This document shows, in pieces, positions 34,707 to 62,383 of a stretch of 64,000 bases of DNA. The stretch covers positions 1 through 64,000 of the forward strand of contig DATKRS010000029.1 of the NCBI GenBank assembly GCA_035532035.1, written 5' to 3'. The notes beneath the pieces were generated by a model. That model made no database searches, was not told where the DNA came from, and was given only the letters and a program-made list of their open reading frames with translations. Position 1 is the first letter of the stretch. Every line of letters begins with the position of its first letter. The translations under genes were made by a program, and so were the position numbers. The DNA is from Candidatus Dormiibacterota bacterium. Its GTDB lineage: Bacteria; Vulcanimicrobiota; Vulcanimicrobiia; Vulcanimicrobiales; Vulcanimicrobiaceae.

Positions 34707-35975
34707 TTAGGAGCCCTTTGCCATGAAATAGAACATTCCGACGGCAGCTCCACCCATGAGCACAACCGTCGCCCAGCCCCATGCGATCGCGAGCATCGAA
34801 CTGCGCCACTCGCCCATCCTCCGGTCTGATGCGAGCCAGACGATTACGGCGATGAGCGGCACTGCTGCGATGCCGTTGAGGACCGCCGACCAGAAGAGCG
34901 CGCTGATCGCATTGATCCGCAGCAAGTCGATGAAGATCCCGATGATGATTCCACCCGCAATCACGGCGTAGAACTGACGGGCCCGCGCGGGTGGCTCGTT
35001 CAAACCTTGGCGGAACTTAAACGTTTCGGCCGCAACGTACGCTGAGGACCCCGCCAGTACGGGCACGGCCAAGATCCCCGTGCCGACCATGCCCACGGTG
35101 AAGAGCATCGCGGCAAACCGCCCCGCGAGCGGCTGGAGCGCTCGCGCCGCCTGCTCCGCCGTCTGAATGTTGCGTATGCCGTGGGCACCGAGCGTCGTTG
35201 CGGTCGTCACGATGATGAAGAATGCAACGACATTCGAGAAGATCATCCCCGCGTTGATGTCCGTATGACAGTCGCGGATCGCCTGCGCATTGGTTCCTCG
35301 CCGGGCGACGATCGTGGTCTTCCCTTGATTCTTCTCCTCCTCGACCATGAGGGAGGCTTGCCAGAAGAACAGGTACGGCGTGATCGTTGTCCCAAGCACG
35401 CCAACCAGCGTCGCGAGAACGCTGGAGTCCAAGCGCATGTGCGGCACAACCAAATGCGCGAGCACGCGCGACCACGGAGCATGCACGACGAAGGCGGTGA
35501 TGACGTACGCGAAGAGCGACAGCGTCAGCCATTTGAATATGCGCGCGAGGACGGCGTATGAAAGCCACACCTGTGCCGCGATGAGTCCGACGCCGAAGAG
35601 CAGCGTCCACGCATCCGGCGGCAACGGAATGACGAGATGAGCCGCCGCGGACATTCCCCCGATATCTGCCCCGACGTTGAACGTATTTGCGATGATCACG
35701 AGCGTCGCCAGCGAGTAGGCTACCGGCGGGACGAGGCGTTTGCGCATCGCCGCGGCGAGGCCCTCGCCCGTCACGAGCGCGATGCGCGCGCACATGCCCT
35801 GTACAACGGCCATCATCGGCGTCGAGATCAGCGTGAGCCACAGGAGTGAGTAGCCGGTTGAAGCTCCGGCCACCGAATACGTGGAGATCCCGGACGGATC
35901 GTCATCAGCGGCCCCGGTGATGAGGCCGGGACCGAGTACTCGGAAGAAGCGTATGAGCCGCGACGGGCGGCTCAA
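34707..35975 (-). CDS. NRAMP-like divalent cation transporter with altered metal-site motifs
   Basis: 422 aa, about 11 transmembrane helices, clearly of the NRAMP/MntH fold (FRVLGPGLITGAADDDPSG at TM1). The canonical DPGN of TM1 reads DPSG and the TM6 MPH motif reads TPY (in TTITPYLFFWQASLM), so the Met and Asn ligands that select transition metals are absent. NRAMP-related proteins with such changes are known to move Mg rather than Mn/Fe; that assignment is inferred here. TTG start at 35975 lies 2 bp after the stop of the 52-aa membrane peptide gene, so they form one unit. Confidence 0.85.
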   Translation of the reverse strand: MSRPSRLIRFFRVLGPGLITGAADDDPSGISTYSVAGASTGYSLLWLTLISTPMMAVVQGMCARIALVTGEGLAAAMRKRLVPPVAYSLATLVIIANTFNVGADIGGMSAAAHLVIPLPPDAWTLLFGVGLIAAQVWLSYAVLARIFKWLTLSLFAYVITAFVVHAPWSRVLAHLVVPHMRLDSSVLATLVGVLGTTITPYLFFWQASLMVEEEKNQGKTTIVARRGTNAQAIRDCHTDINAGMIFSNVVAFFIIVTTATTLGAHGIRNIQTAEQAARALQPLAGRFAAMLFTVGMVGTGILAVPVLAGSSAYVAAETFKFRQGLNEPPARARQFYAVIAGGIIIGIFIDLLRINAISALFWSAVLNGIAAVPLIAVIVWLASDRRMGEWRSSMLAIAWGWATVVLMGGAAVGMFYFMAKGS

Positions 35976-35977
35976 GG

Positions 35978-36136
35978 TCAGATGCGCGCCCCTCGACCGG
36001 TCAACAGGTTAATGACGAGGATGACCAGCGCCACCACCAAGAGCAGGTGAATCAGGCCGCCTCCGAAGTGCAGCAAGAAGCCGGCGAGCCATAACACGAA
36101 AAGCACGCCGACGATCGTCCACAGCAGATTTGCCAT
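35978..36136 (-). CDS. 52-aa lmo0937-like membrane peptide
   Basis: Starts MANLLWTIVGVLFVLWLAGF and ends LLTGRGARI. Two closely packed hydrophobic helices (residues ~4-20 and ~28-45) with His-Phe-Gly-rich turn between. The pattern LLWTIVGVLFVLWLxGF matches small bacterial membrane proteins annotated lmo0937 family. A strong Shine-Dalgarno (GGGAGGTGAT) precedes ATG 36136. It is directly coupled to the NRAMP-like gene. A paralogue heads the NHEJ operon at 50524-50685. Too short for routine gene callers. Confidence 0.78.
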   Translation of the reverse strand: MANLLWTIVGVLFVLWLAGFLLHFGGGLIHLLLVVALVILVINLLTGRGARI

Positions 36137-36441
36137 CAGGATCACCTCCCGAGTTTACGTTTGCAGCCGCGCTATGTTCCGCTCGTTCCTTTCCGTGACA
36201 TCATGTCCTCCTTTCGGAAGTTTACCCCCGAGCAAGAGAGGCGCAACCAAGTGCCTTGGCTCCGGAAATGCTCGCACGACGCCAATGAACGTATCCCTGG
36301 ACGTGTCATCTGCGATCGGGTGTACAGAAGAGTCGCTCCAGCGCGTCGAACTGCGCGACGGCGCTGCTAAAGCCGTTCGAAGTTGGAAAATGTCGTTGTG
36401 CTGTCAGCGCAGAACCTGATGAGAGGAGGGAGCTAGGTTTC
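36137..36441. other. 305-bp divergent intergenic region
   Basis: Lies between the minus-strand peptide/NRAMP unit and the plus-strand lipid kinase, so it must hold both promoters. No coding sequence is convincing; a plus-strand ORF at 36161-36370 is Arg-rich low-quality coding and is left out. GAGAGGAGGGAG at 36421-36432 is the probable ribosome-binding area of the kinase gene. Confidence 0.5.
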
Positions 36442-47180: not shown

Positions 47181-47999
47181 CTACGCGGCGCCGCGCTTGC
47201 GGCGCGACGCGCTCTCTTTTCTCTCGCCGCGCTCTTTGAGGCTGCGCTCGAGCACGTCCATGAGGTTCACGACTTTGCCGCGCACCGGCGCCGCCTTCTT
47301 CGCCTTCGGCAGCTCCTTTCCGGAGACGCGCGCCTCGATGAGGGCGAGCACCGTCTCGCGGTAGCGGTTTGGGAACTTCGCCGGCTCGAACTCTTCCACG
47401 CTCATCGAGTCGACGAGCATCTTTGCCATCTTCAGCTCGGCCGGCGGCAGCTTTTCGCGCCCGGGGAGATCGAGCTCGCTGCGATCGACGATCTCTGTCG
47501 ACCAGCGCATGAGATCGAGCACGAGCGCCGAGCCCGACGGTTTGACTGCTGCGATGTACTCCTTCGTTCGAATCACGACCCGCGCGACCGCGACGCGCGC
47601 GGTCTGCTCCAGCGTCTCGCGCAGCAGCGCGTAGGCGTGACGGCCTTGCTTCGTCGGCTCGAGATAGTACGGCTGATCGAAGTACATCGGATCGATCTTC
47701 TCGAGTTCGACAAACTCGAGGATGTCGATGGTATGCGTCACCTCGGGATCGATTCGCTCGAAGTCGGCGTCCGTCAGCACGACGTGCTCGCCTTTCTCGT
47801 ACTCGTACCCCTTGACGATTTCGTCCCAGGGAACGGGCTTGCCGTCGACGCTGCAGATGCGCTCGAACTTGATGCGCCCTTCGTCCTTCTTATGCAGCAT
47901 GTGAAACGAAAGCTCGTTGCTGTGCACCGCTCCCGTCAGCTTCACCGGGATCGTGACGAGGCCGAAGGAAATAGAACCGGACCAAATCGCGCGCGCCAT
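47181..47999 (-). CDS. ku: Non-homologous end-joining protein Ku
   Basis: 272 aa, the usual bacterial Ku size. Homodimeric ring that binds double-strand break ends and recruits LigD. Starts MARAIWSGSISFGLVTIPVK, the family hallmark, with LSFHMLHKKDEGRIKFERIC and YFDQPYYLEPTKQGRHAYAL in the core, and a Lys/Arg-rich C-terminus (ERGERKESASRRKRGAA). GGAGGT four bases before ATG. It begins one base after the LigD polymerase stop. Confidence 0.96.
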   Translation of the reverse strand: MARAIWSGSISFGLVTIPVKLTGAVHSNELSFHMLHKKDEGRIKFERICSVDGKPVPWDEIVKGYEYEKGEHVVLTDADFERIDPEVTHTIDILEFVELEKIDPMYFDQPYYLEPTKQGRHAYALLRETLEQTARVAVARVVIRTKEYIAAVKPSGSALVLDLMRWSTEIVDRSELDLPGREKLPPAELKMAKMLVDSMSVEEFEPAKFPNRYRETVLALIEARVSGKELPKAKKAAPVRGKVVNLMDVLERSLKERGERKESASRRKRGAA

Positions 48000-48000
48000 C

Positions 48001-48957
48001 TTACCTCCAAAGCTTTCGAACGCGCTCGACGGTTCGCGAGAGCTGCGTCCGCTTCCAACTACGCCCGCTCCATCGGTCTCCCTCCCGCGCGAGCGCCTTG
48101 GGAACGGTGCGAATCGTATATTTCCCAAAGGCGTCGGCAGGCACCGGCGTCCTCGACCGGCGGAAGGACTCGACCTCGCTCCAGTCCAGCGGCCAGGATG
48201 CGGGAGCCCCGTCACGCGCGCGGACGGAGAAGGGCGCGACGAGCGTCTTGCCGTGCCCGACCTGCACGTAGTCGATATAGACCGCAGCCGAGCGCCGCTT
48301 CGCGATCGTGCGCTCGAGCGTGACGAGCTTGCCGCAGATTCCGCCGACGTGCCGCGCCACGAGCTCGGCAAAGACCTTCGCCTGCTCGTACGAGTGGCCG
48401 GGGGCGAGTGGAACGACGACGTGCAGCCCCATGCCGCCCGACGTCTTCACGAGGGGCGTCAGGCCGATGCCGGCGAGCGCTGCGCGCAGCTCGAGCGTGA
48501 CGATCGCGAGCGTTTTGAGCGTGCAATCCTCGCCCGGGTCGAGGTCGAAGAGCACGAAATCCGGCTCGTCGAGGGATCCCACGCGCGACGTCCAGACGTG
48601 CAGGACGATCGCAGCGAGATTGGCGAGGTAGATCAGCGATGGCGCGTCGTTGCACAATACGTATGTGATCTTCGATCTGCGGCCGCCGGGGCTCGAGAGC
48701 GTCACGCGGTGTACCCACTCCGGGATTCCTTGCGGAACGTTCTTCTCGAAAAACGAGCCGGCATCGATGCCGTTGGGAAAGCGCTCGAGCGTCAGCGGAC
48801 GGTCCTTCAAATAGGGTAGCATGACGCCGGAAACGGCGTGATAATACGTGATGAGATCGCGCTTCGTATAGCCGTCCCGCGGCCAGAGTACCTTGTCGAG
48901 ATTCGAGAGCGAGAGCGTGCGGTTCTCGACACGAACCTCGGTGCGCTTCTCCGCCAT
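48001..48957 (-). CDS. ligD: LigD polymerase/primase domain protein (stand-alone)
   Basis: 318 aa. Archaeo-eukaryotic-primase-type NHEJ polymerase: SNLDKVLWPRDGYTKRDLI, RPLTLERFPNGIDAGSFFEK, FVLFDLDPGED (catalytic Asp pair), VKTSGGMGLHVVVPL (catalytic Ser/His region) and PFSVRARDGAPASWPLDW. Fills or adds nucleotides at broken ends. In Mycobacterium and Pseudomonas this is one domain of a three-domain LigD; here it is a separate protein whose ATG overlaps the ligase stop (TAATG at 48959-48955). Confidence 0.94.
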   Translation of the reverse strand: MAEKRTEVRVENRTLSLSNLDKVLWPRDGYTKRDLITYYHAVSGVMLPYLKDRPLTLERFPNGIDAGSFFEKNVPQGIPEWVHRVTLSSPGGRRSKITYVLCNDAPSLIYLANLAAIVLHVWTSRVGSLDEPDFVLFDLDPGEDCTLKTLAIVTLELRAALAGIGLTPLVKTSGGMGLHVVVPLAPGHSYEQAKVFAELVARHVGGICGKLVTLERTIAKRRSAAVYIDYVQVGHGKTLVAPFSVRARDGAPASWPLDWSEVESFRRSRTPVPADAFGKYTIRTVPKALAREGDRWSGRSWKRTQLSRTVERVRKLWR

Positions 48958-50540
48958 TATTGCGGCATCTCCCGAACGACGTCCTTGGCGCTCTTGTCTG
49001 CACGCACGCCGAGGAACGCTGCCTGCCGCACCAACCCGTCGCGCGTCCATTCCGCAAAGCGCACCTCTGCGACGAGCTTCGGCTCGACCCAGTGCGCGCC
49101 ACGCAGCACGTCACCCCGCGCGAAGGGCGAGGTCTTGCGCGCGAGCTTCTTCAGCGTCGCATGTAGTTCGCGCAGCACGCGCTCGTTGAATCCCGTTCCG
49201 ACGTTGCCGGTATAGACGAGCTTGCCTTTCTCGTAGACCCCCAGCAACAGCGAGCCGAATCCGGTTCGCGAGCCTTGCGGATCGGTCCATCCGCCGATTA
49301 CGAACTCTTGCTCGAGGTGCGCTTTGATCTTTAGCCAGTCGCGGCTCCGCCGCTCCTGATACGTCGAGTCGCGCCGCTTCGCGACGACGCCTTCGAGCCC
49401 GCGCTTGCGCGCGAGTGCAAAAAATGCTTTGCCTTTACCGACGATATGCTTGGAATATAGGACGAGATCTTCGTCGCGGACGAGTTGCTGGAGGAGCGCT
49501 TTGCGGCTCTCGAGCGGCTCCTTGCGCAGGTCCCTGCCGTCTGCGTAGATGAGATCGAACGCCACGTAGACGAGCGGCGCTTTGGTTTTGGCGGCTTCTT
49601 GCAGCTGCTGAAAACTCGAGCTGCCGTGCGCGTCGAGCTTACAGATCTCGCCGTCGACCTCGATCGGGACGCTCGAAAACGCGTCCGCGAGGCCTGCCAT
49701 CTGCGGAAAACGTTTGAGAAGATCAAGCGCGTTCCTCGACGTCAACGTCAGCGTTCCGTCCTCGGCAACGGTGCAGATCGCACGGTACCCGTCCCACTTG
49801 ATCTCGAAGAGCCAGTCGTCGTCGTCGAAGGGCTCCTTGACGAGCGTCGCCAGCATCACCGACGTCAAGGCCGGAAGGCGATCGCGCGCCGCCGCCGTGC
49901 GCGGCGCCGCCGCGTGCCGGGATTTCGGTCGCGACTGCCACGTGCGCGACTTCGGGTCGCGTCCGATCTCGTCGAGCGACTTGCCGCTCTTGACCGAGCG
50001 CGAGTGCCGTTTGATATCCCACGACGTCTTCGCGTATTCGTCGCGATCCTTGAAGAGCAGCCACGGGTCGCCGCTCTCCCCCTCGCGCGGCTTGATACGA
50101 ACGAGCGTGAAGAGCCCTTTGAGCTTCTCGCCCTGCATCACGAACTTGATCTTGCCGTTTGCGATCTCGTGCGTCGGATCCGCTCCTTCGGCGAGATCGT
50201 ACGTACCGCGATCCCAAACGATGACGCTTCCCGCACCGTACTGTCCCTTCGGAATCGTGCCTTCGAAGTCGCGATAGGAGAGCGGATGATCCTCCACGTG
50301 CATTGCGAGACGCCGCTCGCCTGCGACCATGGTCGGCCCCTTCGGCACCGCCCACGACGCCAGCGTTCCGCCGGCCTCCAAGCGAAAGTCCCAGTGCAGC
50401 CGCGTCGCGTGATGCATCTGTACCACGAACCGGTGGTGGCGCGCTGAGCGCTCGCGCGCACCCGAAGGCTCCGGCGTCTGCGCGAAGTCGCGCTTGGCGC
50501 GGTAGATCGCGAGCGATCCCCGCTTAGCGCGCGCGGGCAC
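48957..50540 (-). CDS. ligD: ATP-dependent DNA ligase LigD with N-terminal phosphoesterase domain
   Basis: 527 aa. Residues ~30-190 are the LigD 3'-phosphoesterase: RFVVQMHHATRLHWDFRLE, WAVPKGPT, EDHPLSYRDFEGTIPKGQYG and WDRGTYDL, containing the metal-binding His/Asp set. After a basic linker the ligase domain has FEIKWDGYRAICTV (adenylated Lys), EVDGEICKLDAHG, YVAFDLIYADGRDLR, LEGVVAKRRDSTYQ and WLKIKAHLEQEFVIGG. PE-LIG without POL. GTG 50540 overlaps the upstream membrane-peptide gene by 17 bp. Confidence 0.94.
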   Translation of the reverse strand: MPARAKRGSLAIYRAKRDFAQTPEPSGARERSARHHRFVVQMHHATRLHWDFRLEAGGTLASWAVPKGPTMVAGERRLAMHVEDHPLSYRDFEGTIPKGQYGAGSVIVWDRGTYDLAEGADPTHEIANGKIKFVMQGEKLKGLFTLVRIKPREGESGDPWLLFKDRDEYAKTSWDIKRHSRSVKSGKSLDEIGRDPKSRTWQSRPKSRHAAAPRTAAARDRLPALTSVMLATLVKEPFDDDDWLFEIKWDGYRAICTVAEDGTLTLTSRNALDLLKRFPQMAGLADAFSSVPIEVDGEICKLDAHGSSSFQQLQEAAKTKAPLVYVAFDLIYADGRDLRKEPLESRKALLQQLVRDEDLVLYSKHIVGKGKAFFALARKRGLEGVVAKRRDSTYQERRSRDWLKIKAHLEQEFVIGGWTDPQGSRTGFGSLLLGVYEKGKLVYTGNVGTGFNERVLRELHATLKKLARKTSPFARGDVLRGAHWVEPKLVAEVRFAEWTRDGLVRQAAFLGVRADKSAKDVVREMPQ

Positions 50541-50685
50541 GGTTGCGAAGCAGATTTATGACGAGTAAGACGATCGCCACGATCAAGAGGACGTGAATGG
50601 AAATCGTCAGGAGATGAAAGATCAGCCACCCAACGAGCCATAGGATGAAGAGAACGACGACGAGCGTCCAAAGCAACTGACCCAC
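50524..50685 (-). CDS. 53-aa lmo0937-like membrane peptide heading the NHEJ operon
   Basis: Starts VGQLLWTLVVVLFILWLVGW and ends VINLLRNRARAR, with two tight hydrophobic helices. A paralogue of the peptide at 35978-36136: both have LLWT(I/L)V at the start, LWL(A/V)G in the middle and VINLL near a basic end. GTG 50685 follows GGAGGATAT. It overlaps the ligase gene by 17 bp, so the peptide and ligase are coupled. Membrane role in repair is not known. Confidence 0.72.
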   Translation of the reverse strand: MGQLLWTLVVVLFILWLVGWLIFHLLTISIHVLLIVAIVLLVINLLRNRARAR

Positions 50686-50762: not shown

Positions 50763-52514
50763 ATGCCCGAGTTCCGCTTCTCGCCACGCCCGAATCGGGC
50801 GCACGAAATCCCCTGGCTGCCGTGGGGCGCGCGGGCCTTTGAGGCAGCGGAGCGAGAGCGCAAGCCGGTCTTGCTCTCGATTTCGGCGGTCTGGTGCCAC
50901 TGGTGCCACGTCATGGATGAAACGACGTACTCGGACCCCGGCGTCATCGACGCCATTCGCGAGCACTTCGTTCCCGTTCGCGTCGACAACGACGAGCGCC
51001 CGGACGTCAACGCGCGGTACAATATGGGCGGTTGGCCGACGACCGCCTTTCTCGCTTCGGACGGGACGGCGCTCACCGGTGCAACCTATCTCCCGCCGCC
51101 GCAGATGCGGCGCGTGCTCGGTGAAATCGCGACGTGGTACGCGCAGCACGAAGACGAGATCGCCGAGCGCGCACGCGCACCACATACCTCCGCGCGCGTC
51201 GATCTCACGCCCGCAGATCGCGCGAAACCAGAACAGGTGCGACGCATCGCCGAGACGATCGCCTCGGCGTTCGACGAGGAGTTCGGCGGGTTCGGCGAGG
51301 CTCCAAAGTTTCCGCAACCCGAGCTGCTCGAGTTTCTCGTCGTAGAGGCACGCGCGACCGGCGACGACCGCCTGCGCGCGATGGCCGTGCGCACGCTGCT
51401 CGCGATGGCGAGAGGCGGCATGTACGATCACGTCGAGGGCGGATTCTTTCGATACTCCACGACGCGCGACTGGTCGATTCCGCACTTCGAAAAGATGGCG
51501 GAAGAAAACGCCGGGCTCGCTCGCGTGCTCTCGCTCGAACTTCAGCAGACGCGACACGACGAGCTTCATGCCACGCTGCGCTCTCTCGTCGGGTACGTGA
51601 CGAACGTACTGCGCGACCCGGCGACGGGCTTCTTTGCCGGCAGCCAGGACGCCGACGAAGAGTACTACGCGCTGACGCTCGACGAGCGTCGAGCCCTCGC
51701 AACGCCGTACGTCGATCGGACCGTGTACTCCGACCGCAACGCCGCGCTCGCTGGAGCGCTCGTGCTCGCAGGAGCTACGCTCGACGACGCGGCGGTCGCC
51801 GATGCCGGCGTGCGCGCGCTCGACGTACTTCACGAGACTATGCTCGACGACGAAGGCCTGCTCTATCACGTACGACGCCCCGGTGAAACGCCGTCGATTC
51901 GCGGTCTTCTCGGGGACCAATCCGCGTATCTGCGCGCGCTGCTCGAGGCGCACGAAGCCTCCGGGAGCGCTCGCTTTCTCGAACGCGCCCTGGCGGTAGC
52001 CGGCGCAGTCGAGCGACGCTTCGCCGCGGACGACGGCGGCTTCTACGATCACGCAGGTATCGAAGCGGAGCTCGGACGCCTCGCGCTGCGCGACCGGCCG
52101 CTCGTCGAGAACGCGATCCTGGCTGAGTCGTTCATGCGCATTGCCGCGCTCTGCGGGCAGGAACGCTACCGCGACGTCGCAGAGCGTACGCTGCGCGTGT
52201 ACGAACAGAGCGCCCAGAGCGCCGGCCCGTTCGCAGCGGCGTACGCGCGCGCGCTGCGCCGCTTCCTCGCGCCCCCGGTCGAGGTGCGCATCGTCGGTAC
52301 AGAGGCGGAGACCGCGGCATTTCGAGAGGCCGCTCGCCGCCTGCCTTCACCTTTCGTCGCGGTACGCACGATCGAGCCGGGCGATTCCGCTGCGCTCGGG
52401 CTTGCGTCGGCACCGACGCCGGCAGCGTACGTGTGCGCTCGAGAGCGGTGTGGCGCGCCGGCGCGCGACGCGGGCGCGCTACGCGCCGCCTACGACGCGC
52501 TGCTCCAACCTTAG
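50763..52514 (+). CDS. DUF255 (YyaL/SSP411-type) thioredoxin-fold protein
   Basis: 583 aa. The N-terminal thioredoxin-like domain has the DUF255 hallmark SAVWCHWCHVMDETTYSDP and YNMGGWPTTAFL. The C-terminal two-thirds is an (alpha/alpha)6 glycosidase-like toroid (EFGGFGEAPKFPQPELLEFL, GGFFRYSTTRDWSIPHFEKM, YHVRRPGETPSIRGLLGDQS). The CHWCH pair could be redox active; the biological role of the family is unsettled. Short for the family (often ~680 aa). Its TAG overlaps the GTG of the downstream transferase. Confidence 0.93.
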   Translation: MPEFRFSPRPNRAHEIPWLPWGARAFEAAERERKPVLLSISAVWCHWCHVMDETTYSDPGVIDAIREHFVPVRVDNDERPDVNARYNMGGWPTTAFLASDGTALTGATYLPPPQMRRVLGEIATWYAQHEDEIAERARAPHTSARVDLTPADRAKPEQVRRIAETIASAFDEEFGGFGEAPKFPQPELLEFLVVEARATGDDRLRAMAVRTLLAMARGGMYDHVEGGFFRYSTTRDWSIPHFEKMAEENAGLARVLSLELQQTRHDELHATLRSLVGYVTNVLRDPATGFFAGSQDADEEYYALTLDERRALATPYVDRTVYSDRNAALAGALVLAGATLDDAAVADAGVRALDVLHETMLDDEGLLYHVRRPGETPSIRGLLGDQSAYLRALLEAHEASGSARFLERALAVAGAVERRFAADDGGFYDHAGIEAELGRLALRDRPLVENAILAESFMRIAALCGQERYRDVAERTLRVYEQSAQSAGPFAAAYARALRRFLAPPVEVRIVGTEAETAAFREAARRLPSPFVAVRTIEPGDSAALGLASAPTPAAYVCARERCGAPARDAGALRAAYDALLQP

Positions 52515-60035: not shown

Positions 60036-60839
60036 TTACTCCTTGAGGACTGCCCGAAGCTTGTCGAGCGCCTTCGCTTGGAGTCGTGAGACATGCATCT
60101 GCGAGACGTTGAGGCGCTGGGCGATCTCCGTCTGCGATACCGATTCGAAGAAGCGCAGGTGGATGATCACGCGCTCGCGACCGGAGAGCACCGAGAAGGC
60201 GCGCTCCAAGTTCGTACGATCCTCGAGCAGCTCGAGTCCGGAATCCGTCGTCCCGACGGTGTCGCCGAGCGTCTGCGATCTCCGGTCGCCGTCGCTCGAA
60301 ATCTCCGAATCGAGCGAGAGAAGGTTGTACGCCTGCCCGAGCTCCTGCGCCTCGAGGATATCTTCTTCGCTGGCATCGAGATGCTTCGAGAGCTCGGCCA
60401 CCGTCGGACTGCGCCCCAGCTCAACGGCAAGCTTTTCGCTCGCGCGGTTGACCGCAAGATTCAGCTCCTGAAGCCGGCGTGGAACCTTGACCGCCCAGCC
60501 TTTGTCGCGGAAGTAGCGCTTGATCTCGCCGACGATCGTCGGCGTCGCGTACGTCGTGAACTCCACTCCCCGCTCGAGCTCGAAGCGGTCGATAGCTTTG
60601 AGCAGTCCCACCGTCCCGACCTGCACGAGATCGTCGATCGGCTCGCCGCGGTTGGCGAACTTCAGCGCGAGAAACCGCACGAGGTTGAGATGCGTGACTA
60701 CGAGGTCGTTCCGAAGACTGTCGTACGCACCGTCCTCGCCACCCGGCTGCCCACGATTTCGGCGCGCTTTTTCAAAGCGAGCGAACAGGTGCCGCGTACG
60801 TTCCCGAGTGGAACGCCCCTCGCGAGACCGCTCCGGCAC
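60036..60839 (-). CDS. sigB: RNA polymerase sigma factor, SigB/SigF subfamily
   Basis: 267 aa. Group 3 sigma factor: region 2 VTHLNLVRFLALKFANRGEP and DDLVQVGTVGLLKAIDRFEL, TTYATPTIVGEIKRYFRDKG, region 3 VPRRLQELNLAVNRASEKLA and region 4 LSGRERVIIHLRFFESVSQT then QRLNVSQMHVSRLQAKALDK. This is the SigB/SigF/SigG type controlled by anti-sigma partner switching. GTG start one base after the rsbW stop. Controls a stress regulon; its targets are not identifiable here beyond likely autoregulation. Confidence 0.95.
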   Translation of the reverse strand: MPERSREGRSTRERTRHLFARFEKARRNRGQPGGEDGAYDSLRNDLVVTHLNLVRFLALKFANRGEPIDDLVQVGTVGLLKAIDRFELERGVEFTTYATPTIVGEIKRYFRDKGWAVKVPRRLQELNLAVNRASEKLAVELGRSPTVAELSKHLDASEEDILEAQELGQAYNLLSLDSEISSDGDRRSQTLGDTVGTTDSGLELLEDRTNLERAFSVLSGRERVIIHLRFFESVSQTEIAQRLNVSQMHVSRLQAKALDKLRAVLKE

Positions 60840-60840
60840 G

Positions 60841-61263
60841 TCAGCTCGGCAAGCGCTTGAACATGACGAGGTCGGTACCGCCGTCGGAACGCGTGTCGTA
60901 GTCGACGCTGTCCACGAGCGCCCGAATGAGGAAGATACCGAGGCTTGCGGCGGAGCCTTCGTCGGCGGTCACGACGTTCACGGCCTCCGGCTGGACCGGG
61001 CCGCCGAAGTTTCGAACGCGGATGCGCAATCCGTCGGAGACGCTCTCGCACAAGAGATCGACGCGGTCGCCGCCACGCGCGATTGCGTGCACCAGCGCCT
61101 CGGCGACGGCGAGCTTGACGTCTTCGATTTCTTCGATTGAGAACTGCAGGCGCGAGGCGACCGCCGAGACGGCAAGTCGCGCGATCGATACCCATTCGGC
61201 CTTCGCCGGAATGCGCAGCTCGACGACGTCCGTCGCCGCTTCGTGCCGCGCCTGCGCGTTCAT
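60841..61263 (-). CDS. rsbW: RsbW-like anti-sigma factor with altered N-box
   Basis: 140 aa GHKL/HATPase_c protein of the RsbW/SpoIIAB type, expected to bind the adjacent sigma factor. IEDVKLAVAEALVHAIARGG is the N-box helix: the catalytic Glu of the RsbW family (in AVSE...) is kept but the Mg-binding Asn (as in EACTNAV) is His. The G1 box reads VRNFGGPVQ, where Asp would be normal, and the later GxG lid is ASLGIFLIRALVD. ATP binding and kinase activity may be impaired. ATG overlaps the rsbV stop (ATGA). Confidence 0.9.
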   Translation of the reverse strand: MNAQARHEAATDVVELRIPAKAEWVSIARLAVSAVASRLQFSIEEIEDVKLAVAEALVHAIARGGDRVDLLCESVSDGLRIRVRNFGGPVQPEAVNVVTADEGSAASLGIFLIRALVDSVDYDTRSDGGTDLVMFKRLPS

Positions 61264-61604
61264 ACCAGGGCCTTGAGCGCGGCGTCTTCGCTATCGAAGA
61301 TCCCGAAGATCATCACGAGCCCGGTGATGTCGAATATCTTCTTGATCTGTGGATTCGTACACACGAGGTTCACCGATCCGCCGTGCTCGCGCACGCGCTT
61401 GAGCCCGCCGATGAGCACGCCCAGACCGGTGGAATCGATGTAGCGAACTTTCTCGAGATTGATGACGAGATTGTAGACCCCACGGTCGATGAGATTGCTG
61501 ACGGCATCCTTGAGCTTGGGCGAGGTATAGACGTCGATCTCTCCCGAGAGATCGACCACCGAACAATCGCCCTTTGCTTCGCGGACGTTGACCTTGATGT
61601 CCAA
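61260..61604 (-). CDS. rsbV: RsbV-like anti-anti-sigma factor (STAS domain)
   Basis: 114 aa from TTG 61604, preceded by AGGGAA. STAS domain: SVVDLSGEIDVYTSPKLKDA, LVINLEKVRYIDSTGLGVLI and VCTNPQIKKIFDITGLVMIF. The phosphorylatable Ser sits in DSTGLG as in RsbV/SpoIIAA. When unphosphorylated it should sequester RsbW and free the sigma factor. Because the RsbW here has a damaged ATP site, how the switch is set is uncertain. It begins 10 bp after the YtxH-like gene. Confidence 0.94.
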   Translation of the reverse strand: MDIKVNVREAKGDCSVVDLSGEIDVYTSPKLKDAVSNLIDRGVYNLVINLEKVRYIDSTGLGVLIGGLKRVREHGGSVNLVCTNPQIKKIFDITGLVMIFGIFDSEDAALKALV

Positions 61605-61614
61605 TTCGTGTTCC

Positions 61615-61974
61615 CTATTCTTCTGTCTTGTAGCGCAGCTCGTCGCGAAGATGGTCGGCATTTGCCGTGCCTTCCTCAACGGCGGCACCGAAGTTGCCGC
61701 GCGCGTTTTCGACGACGTGTCTGCCCCGTTCGTAGAGATCGGTTGCGTTCGCCTGCCACTGCGCGGCGGCGTCGGCTACCTTGTCGCGGACGTCGGAGAC
61801 CTTGTCCCGAAGATCCTCGCTCGCGTCCTTCGCGAAGCTCGAGGCCTCCTTCGCCTTGCCCACGACCATGTCGCGCGCGTCCTCGCGCGTCAACGCAAGC
61901 GCGACGGCCGCGCCGATCGTAGCACCGATAACGAAACCGCCGAAAAAGCCACTGCCGTGGCGATCATTTGCCAT
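61615..61974 (-). CDS. YtxH-family protein
   Basis: 119 aa. One glycine-rich transmembrane helix at the N-terminus (GSGFFGGFVIGATIGAAVAL) followed by a long amphipathic/coiled-coil tail rich in Ala, Asp and Lys (KEASSFAKDASEDLRDKVSD). This is the YtxH pattern of general-stress membrane proteins. It overlaps the DUF948 gene by 11 bp, reproducing the YtxG-YtxH pair of Bacillus, which is under SigB control there. Confidence 0.87.
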   Translation of the reverse strand: MANDRHGSGFFGGFVIGATIGAAVALALTREDARDMVVGKAKEASSFAKDASEDLRDKVSDVRDKVADAAAQWQANATDLYERGRHVVENARGNFGAAVEEGTANADHLRDELRYKTEE

Positions 61975-62383
61975 GATGTACCAACTCCTCGGAACCTTCC
62001 CTTACACTCTTTCCCGTGACCAAGCGCCGCAAACCCGCGCTTACGCCGGTCAACGCTGCCCCGATGTTGACGATGGCCGGCGATATCGCTTGACGCACGA
62101 GCGCCGTCGTCCCGGAGACCGACCCCGCTACGCTCTCGAGCGCGCCGACCGCACCGCCGAGCCGTGCCAGCGTCTCGTCGGCCGTCGCGGAGATACCTTC
62201 GACGTGTTCCAACGCCTCGCCGACGGGTTTTCCGATGCCCGCGATCTGGCGATCGACTTCGTCGAGCGTCTTTCCGAGACGCACGAAGAGCCGCGCAAGC
62301 GCGAGCATCGCGACGAAGATTCCGGCACCGACCAGAAAGATGCCGGCACCGGCGCCGACATCGAGAACGCTTGGCCAATCCAT
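61964..62383 (-). CDS. DUF948 (YtxG-like) membrane protein
   Basis: 139 aa from ATG 62383 (MDWPSVLDVGAGAGIFLVGA). One N-terminal helix, then a heptad-like region RLGKTLDEVDRQIAGIGKPV, VGEALEHVEGISATADETLA, as in DUF948/YtxG general-stress proteins. ATG lies one base after the nifS stop. With the YtxH-like gene it forms the same pair as Bacillus ytxG-ytxH. Confidence 0.84.
   Translation of the reverse strand: MDWPSVLDVGAGAGIFLVGAGIFVAMLALARLFVRLGKTLDEVDRQIAGIGKPVGEALEHVEGISATADETLARLGGAVGALESVAGSVSGTTALVRQAISPAIVNIGAALTGVSAGLRRLVTGKSVREGSEELVHHGK

Follow-up and report, generated by a model that had tools for sequence, protein, structure and literature searches.

A DUF5670 membrane peptide heads a split-LigD operon in Eremiobacterota, and suggests that DNA-break repair in this family is part of a general stress response

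Bacterial non-homologous end joining (NHEJ) has been described with a three-domain LigD in about 920 of some 1,300 NHEJ genomes, and LigD domains carried on separate proteins form an established category beside it (PMC7719229). Links between NHEJ and stress are also on record: in Sphingopyxis, the published list of the EcfG general stress regulon includes ku-ligD together with csbD and envelope genes (PMC7083833). The small Listeria protein lmo0937 is entered with negative fold values in tables from work on a sigB mutant (PMC7690807), and is also listed in a table belonging to a section on sigma-dependent genes (PMC2813243). Here we describe an NHEJ operon in a 64,000-nucleotide stretch of contig DATKRS010000029.1 (hereafter the window), from a genome of an Eremiobacterota family. 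Its LigD is split, and it is headed by a membrane peptide of the family to which lmo0937 belongs, DUF5670. On balance we consider it probable that the NHEJ operon in this family belongs to a sigma-B-type general stress regulon.

All four genes of the operon lie on the reverse strand. The first encodes the peptide, of 53 residues (50524..50685), with a GGAGG immediately upstream of its GTG start at 50685. It is followed by PE-LIG (48957..50540), which holds the phosphoesterase and ligase domains of LigD; by POL (48001..48957), the LigD primase-polymerase; and by Ku (47181..47999). Matches in Pfam and NCBIfam support each assignment (LigD_N and ligase for PE-LIG, LigD_Prim-Pol for POL, Ku for the last gene). 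The peptide matches DUF5670 (PF18919) with 35.1 bits against a Pfam cut-off of 23.5, and lmo0937_fam_TM (NF033488) with 36 against an NCBIfam cut-off of 30. The packing of the genes is as tight as an earlier sequence-only reading of this DNA had stated. The GTG of PE-LIG at 50540 lies before the end of the peptide gene at 50524, giving an overlap of 17 bp; the stop codon of PE-LIG and the ATG of POL share base 48957 (TAATG); and the ATG of Ku, at 47999, comes one base after the end of POL at 48001. Ku and all the LigD domains are present on different proteins, which places the locus in nonconventional (split LigD) NHEJ.

The occurrence of this arrangement was followed in 99 genomes of the same family, using thresholds of E 1e-5 for Ku and E 0.001 for DUF5670. 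Ku was found in 75 of them and DUF5670 in 86. The window and the 74 other genomes with Ku gave 75 NHEJ loci, of which nine were left out for having no PE region on the piece, so that 66 could be assessed. In 64 of these, PE-LIG and POL are separate open reading frames upstream of Ku. One of the remaining genomes (G029, locus L113) has PE, LIG and POL in a single frame, and G054 yielded no POL. Two further variants were seen: LIG and POL share one frame in a locus that is cut before PE (G028, L101), and about 3.7 kb of additional DNA lies between POL and Ku in G072 (L064). Split LigD is not new (PMC7719229), and LIG and POL are on separate frames in loci L276-L280 also.

A DUF5670 gene immediately precedes PE-LIG in 25 of the 66 loci. 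A script found 24 of them; the other (L130, in G081) exceeded its distance limit and was added by hand. The same peptide-headed arrangement occurs at a contig end in G083, which was counted apart and brings the number of linked genomes to 26. When the presence of DUF5670 at the operon head was mapped on a rapidly built tree of the PE-LIG, POL and Ku sequences, 11 changes were needed, against 20.3 for shuffled labels. The linkage is thus real and frequent in the family, and since it recurs and its label clusters on the NHEJ tree, a chance neighbourhood was rejected. The sequence-only reading had proposed looking for the peptide beside PE-LIG or Ku in other genomes, where it is indeed found, and had made its proposal depend on close relatives sharing it. 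On this second point the window's genus (g1) is divided: the peptide stands at the NHEJ operon in the window's own genome (G000), G081, G083 and G084, and is missing there in G078, G079 and G080. The locus of G082 is cut, and was left out of the genus count.

DUF5670 was not seen heading NHEJ genes outside the window's family in a scan of 149 genomes of the phylum, with coordinates judged by eye. In two genomes from another family of the class (G125, locus L213 on G125:C35, and G124, on G124:C97), a DUF5670 gene is found on the opposite strand some 3 kb beyond Ku. Clustering of the open reading frames upstream of PE-LIG was uninformative, shadow frames dominating the clusters. Likewise the peptide tree resolved little, 4 of its 95 inner branches being starred on an alignment of 52 columns.

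DUF5670 is not the only small membrane protein at the head of these operons. In many genera a second one is present, consisting of a single helix with a W(H/Q)PW motif and a tail rich in Ser, Thr and Asn, which is here called WxPW. Where both occur, WxPW is encoded upstream of DUF5670; in loci lacking DUF5670 it comes immediately before PE-LIG. The script flagged it at 38 of the 66 loci. One of these (L090) is false, having no membrane helix, and two (L113 and L116) are unusual, L113 being doubtful, with a match to the WxPW profile at 2.3e-7. L090 and L113 were set as lacking WxPW in the tree, and all three were excluded from the promoter analysis below, which leaves 35 WxPW-headed loci. A profile search at E 0.01, weak matches included, found WxPW in 68 of the 99 genomes. 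Of the 53 matches that reach E 1e-10, a hand count places 36 at NHEJ and 17 elsewhere, among the latter matches near DUF5670 away from NHEJ in G076 and G064. It was not found at NHEJ in the six loci examined from the window's genus. Four examples were compared with known families, and gave no Pfam or NCBIfam match above the curated cut-off (the best was New_glue, 25 against 31 bits).

The upstream regions of these genes support a connection to stress. Upstream of DUF5670 genes away from NHEJ, the commonest spaced pair is GTTT-N16-GGGT, in 11 of 37 genus representatives (the top pair in shuffled sequence reached 7). GTTT-N13-17-GGGTA is found upstream of 15 of the 79 such genes, compared to a shuffle mean of 0.16. 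A motif of the GTTT-N16-GGGTA type resembles what we take to be the sigma-B/SigF consensus. A promoter matrix was then built from 16 sites upstream of non-NHEJ DUF5670 genes, with no NHEJ site among them, and the upstream regions of 435 other genes served as the control on which the 5% and 1% levels were set. Among the 35 WxPW-headed NHEJ operons, 21 pass at the 5% level and 10 at the 1% level. The 21 span all 16 genera represented, genera with many members having had more chances to contribute. In the window's genus, strong sites are present at the NHEJ operons of two members that do not have the peptide, G078 (17.1) and G079 (13.6).

Several observations weigh against a sigma-B-type regulon. 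The 16 training sites include six from a single genus (g12) and two (L211 and L216) from another family. In a stricter test, each genus contributed a single training site (7 in all) and reverse strands served as the control; at the 5% level, 12 of the 35 WxPW-headed operons, in 10 of the 16 genera, and 4 of the 31 others then pass, so that the stricter training weakens the enrichment. With the original matrix, enrichment is only weak at NHEJ loci without WxPW at the head (5/31 at 5%, 3/31 at 1%), and passes at 5% are few in genera g33 (1/7) and g37 (2/9). A de novo count of pairs on the NHEJ upstream regions themselves did not bring up the motif. The main weakness lies in the window's own genus. 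All four of its peptide-headed NHEJ operons are without a site, with scores equalled by 40-60% of controls: 1.6 in the window, 0.9 in G081, -0.9 in G083 and 0.4 in G084. The value for G081 refers to the region upstream of the peptide, the first matrix run having scored the region upstream of PE-LIG at this locus (L130). A sigma-B-type promoter was accordingly not found at the window's NHEJ operon, where 40% of controls do as well as its best score, nor was a recognisable site present at the NHEJ operon of G080 (3.5), which has no peptide. Finally, allowing one mismatch, GTTT-N16-GGGTA occurs twice in the window where about three occurrences are expected by chance, so that single sites prove little. 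The sigma-B-like promoter motif is enriched at the NHEJ operons of the family, and it is not universal.

A candidate regulator is encoded nearby. In the window, 9.4 kb beyond the NHEJ peptide, there is an operon on the reverse strand containing a sigma factor of the sigma-B/F/G type (60036..60839; TIGR02980, 287 bits against a cut-off of 234), an RsbW-like anti-sigma kinase (60841..61263; HATPase_c_2) and an RsbV-like STAS anti-anti-sigma protein (61260..61688). The presence of RsbW- and RsbV-like genes beside a factor of the sigma-B type is what a sigma-B general stress regulon would require. At the head of this operon, the first gene (61615..61974) is YtxH-like by eye only, with no Pfam match at 1e-5. 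Upstream of it on the same strand is a sigma-B-like site, GTTT-N15-GGGAA (62008..62036), with 0.9% of controls scoring as high. The sigma factor is matched at E 1e-60 in 93 of the 99 genomes, 92 of them above the cut-off. Ku and the sigma factor are on one contig in 45 of the 75 genomes with Ku, at distances of 9.8-26.2 kb in 44 and 49 kb in the other (hand comparison). Of 30 sigma-operon loci, two of them too short to judge, 11 carry the motif immediately ahead of the operon's first gene; these 11 come from five genera, the window's genus supplying 5 of them. An opposite-strand control gave 12 sites of equal strength in 105,895 bp.

In a regulon of this kind, a single promoter of the GTTT-N16-GGGTA type would drive the small stress-envelope proteins (WxPW, DUF5670 or both), with PE-LIG, POL and Ku downstream on the same transcript, so that stress or stasis would raise the capacity for end joining and the protection of the envelope at the same time. 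Like its copies away from NHEJ, the DUF5670 peptide would have its role in the envelope, and none on the repair enzymes. It is best read as a general-stress envelope peptide that shares a stress operon with NHEJ, and not as a tether for it.

The sequence-only reading had offered tethering of NHEJ, or the reporting of stress to it, as the possible novelty. More generally, the peptide could be an NHEJ accessory which holds PE-LIG, POL or Ku at the membrane or signals envelope stress to them. That it immediately precedes PE-LIG in 25 of the 66 loci would fit such a role, as would the presence in the same place of a second membrane protein, WxPW, with 36 of its 53 strong matches at NHEJ. However, an accessory would be expected to occur only together with Ku, and DUF5670 is present in 15 of the 23 family genomes without detected Ku (G083 excluded); some of these 23 are incomplete, and G049, G051 and G053 are listed as 95-98% complete. 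The NHEJ copy is the sole DUF5670 copy in 19 of the 26 linked genomes. A further copy is found in only 7 of these 26, compared to 60 of the 73 genomes without the linkage (Fisher p 6e-7, with no correction for relatedness). The pattern is consistent with each genome keeping one copy that serves a general purpose and may be housed either at NHEJ or at some other place. In addition, the 11 changes on the NHEJ tree imply that NHEJ often works without the peptide, and no DUF5670 match was found in the flanks of 17 LigD loci from other taxa (L265-L281), with a profile made from Eremiobacterota only and with some flanks of only a few bases. An accessory role is thus quite unlikely, and a peptide dedicated to NHEJ is disfavoured by the carriers without detected Ku and by the single-copy behaviour. 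The same two observations speak against the tethering half of the earlier proposal, while its stress half gains from the promoters in relatives and from the place of lmo0937 in the sigma-B tables. Least likely of all, and in our view very improbable, is a membrane module of WxPW and DUF5670 which, under stress, would collect split LigD and Ku at the cytoplasmic membrane; if true, the general stress response would include end joining as a step associated with the membrane.

Two further explanations concern the position of the gene more than its product. The peptide frame could be mainly an expression device, in which re-initiation on the PE-LIG start sets the dosage of LigD. Of the 25 linked loci, only those of G000, G081 and G084 have the 17-bp overlap, and in these three no Shine-Dalgarno-like stretch is seen before the PE-LIG GTG; on this basis, the sequence suggests that peptide and PE-LIG are translationally coupled in the window's genus. 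These loci are also without the stress promoter. Against this, dS, the synonymous rate, exceeds dN, the nonsynonymous rate, in all 20 within-genus pairs of peptides (for G000 and G081, 0.43 and 0.044), and hence the peptide is selected as a protein, its amino-acid sequence being what matters. Moreover, most other linked loci start PE-LIG past the peptide stop with no overlap: by 11-28 nt in 17 of the 25 (some with a further start), and by 52 and 68 nt in two, the script finding no start in three. As the main role of the peptide this is unlikely, and it is compatible with a role as a stress peptide. It is also rather unlikely that the neighbourhood is neutral, a small stress gene having settled a few times before NHEJ and been kept by inheritance with no functional meaning. 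The clustering of the label on the tree (11 changes against 20.3) is what this would produce, since many linked loci share ancestry, and in the window's genus the peptide coincides with a missing stress promoter. It does not account for the enrichment of the same type of promoter both at scattered DUF5670 genes and at the NHEJ operons of relatives.

The window contains a second DUF5670 peptide, of 52 residues (35978..36136, reverse strand; 49.9 bits), located 2 bp upstream of an Nramp-family transporter gene (34707..35975, reverse strand; Pfam and NCBIfam matches). The sequence-only reading took this peptide for a relative of the NHEJ one and saw one small-membrane-protein family on two unrelated operons. 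Both peptides are DUF5670, and both neighbourhoods recur in relatives. Upstream of the second peptide is a marginal sigma-B-like site, GTTG-N16-GGGTA (36220..36249, reverse strand), with 2.1% of controls as high. Among the 79 DUF5670 copies away from NHEJ, Nramp genes are nearby at 10 loci with six genus codes (34707-36136 in the window, L186, L140, L153, L193, L171, L147, L211, L169 and L160), and a gene resembling a SpoIIE phosphatase is nearby at 11 loci in three genera, one representative having been scanned. On the other side of the NHEJ operon, and divergent from it, is a DUF255 thioredoxin-fold gene (Thioredox_DsbH; 50763..52514, forward strand), relatives of which adjoin NHEJ, likewise divergently, in 44 of the 66 family loci by tblastn.

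The comparison with the described systems can now be made. Nonconventional NHEJ (PMC7719229) likewise has a split LigD, here as PE-LIG, POL and Ku in separate genes; in contrast to the arrangements described there, the family keeps the order of these three nearly constant while the head genes vary. As in Sphingopyxis (PMC7083833), NHEJ would be placed under a general stress sigma factor with envelope genes, but the factor there is EcfG, whereas here a sigma-B-like motif is found in relatives and putative stress peptides directly precede the NHEJ genes. The window peptide and lmo0937 are of the same family and size, with stress control reported for lmo0937; the window peptide heads an NHEJ operon, and the Listeria tables describe no such link for lmo0937. 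Among the open papers searched, none was found on DUF5670 under that name, none linking Eremiobacterota with non-homologous end joining, and none joining partner switching, a sigma factor and non-homologous end joining.

The sequence evidence presented here makes a case for the view that end joining in bacteria can come under a stress response of the sigma-B type, in a phylum of which few members have been cultured. DUF5670, a family without explanation, gains recurrent and testable neighbours in NHEJ, Nramp and the SpoIIE-type phosphatase, and WxPW is a second small membrane protein at NHEJ heads, apparently unannotated. Taken together, the results suggest that the repair of DNA breaks in this group is part of the general stress response.

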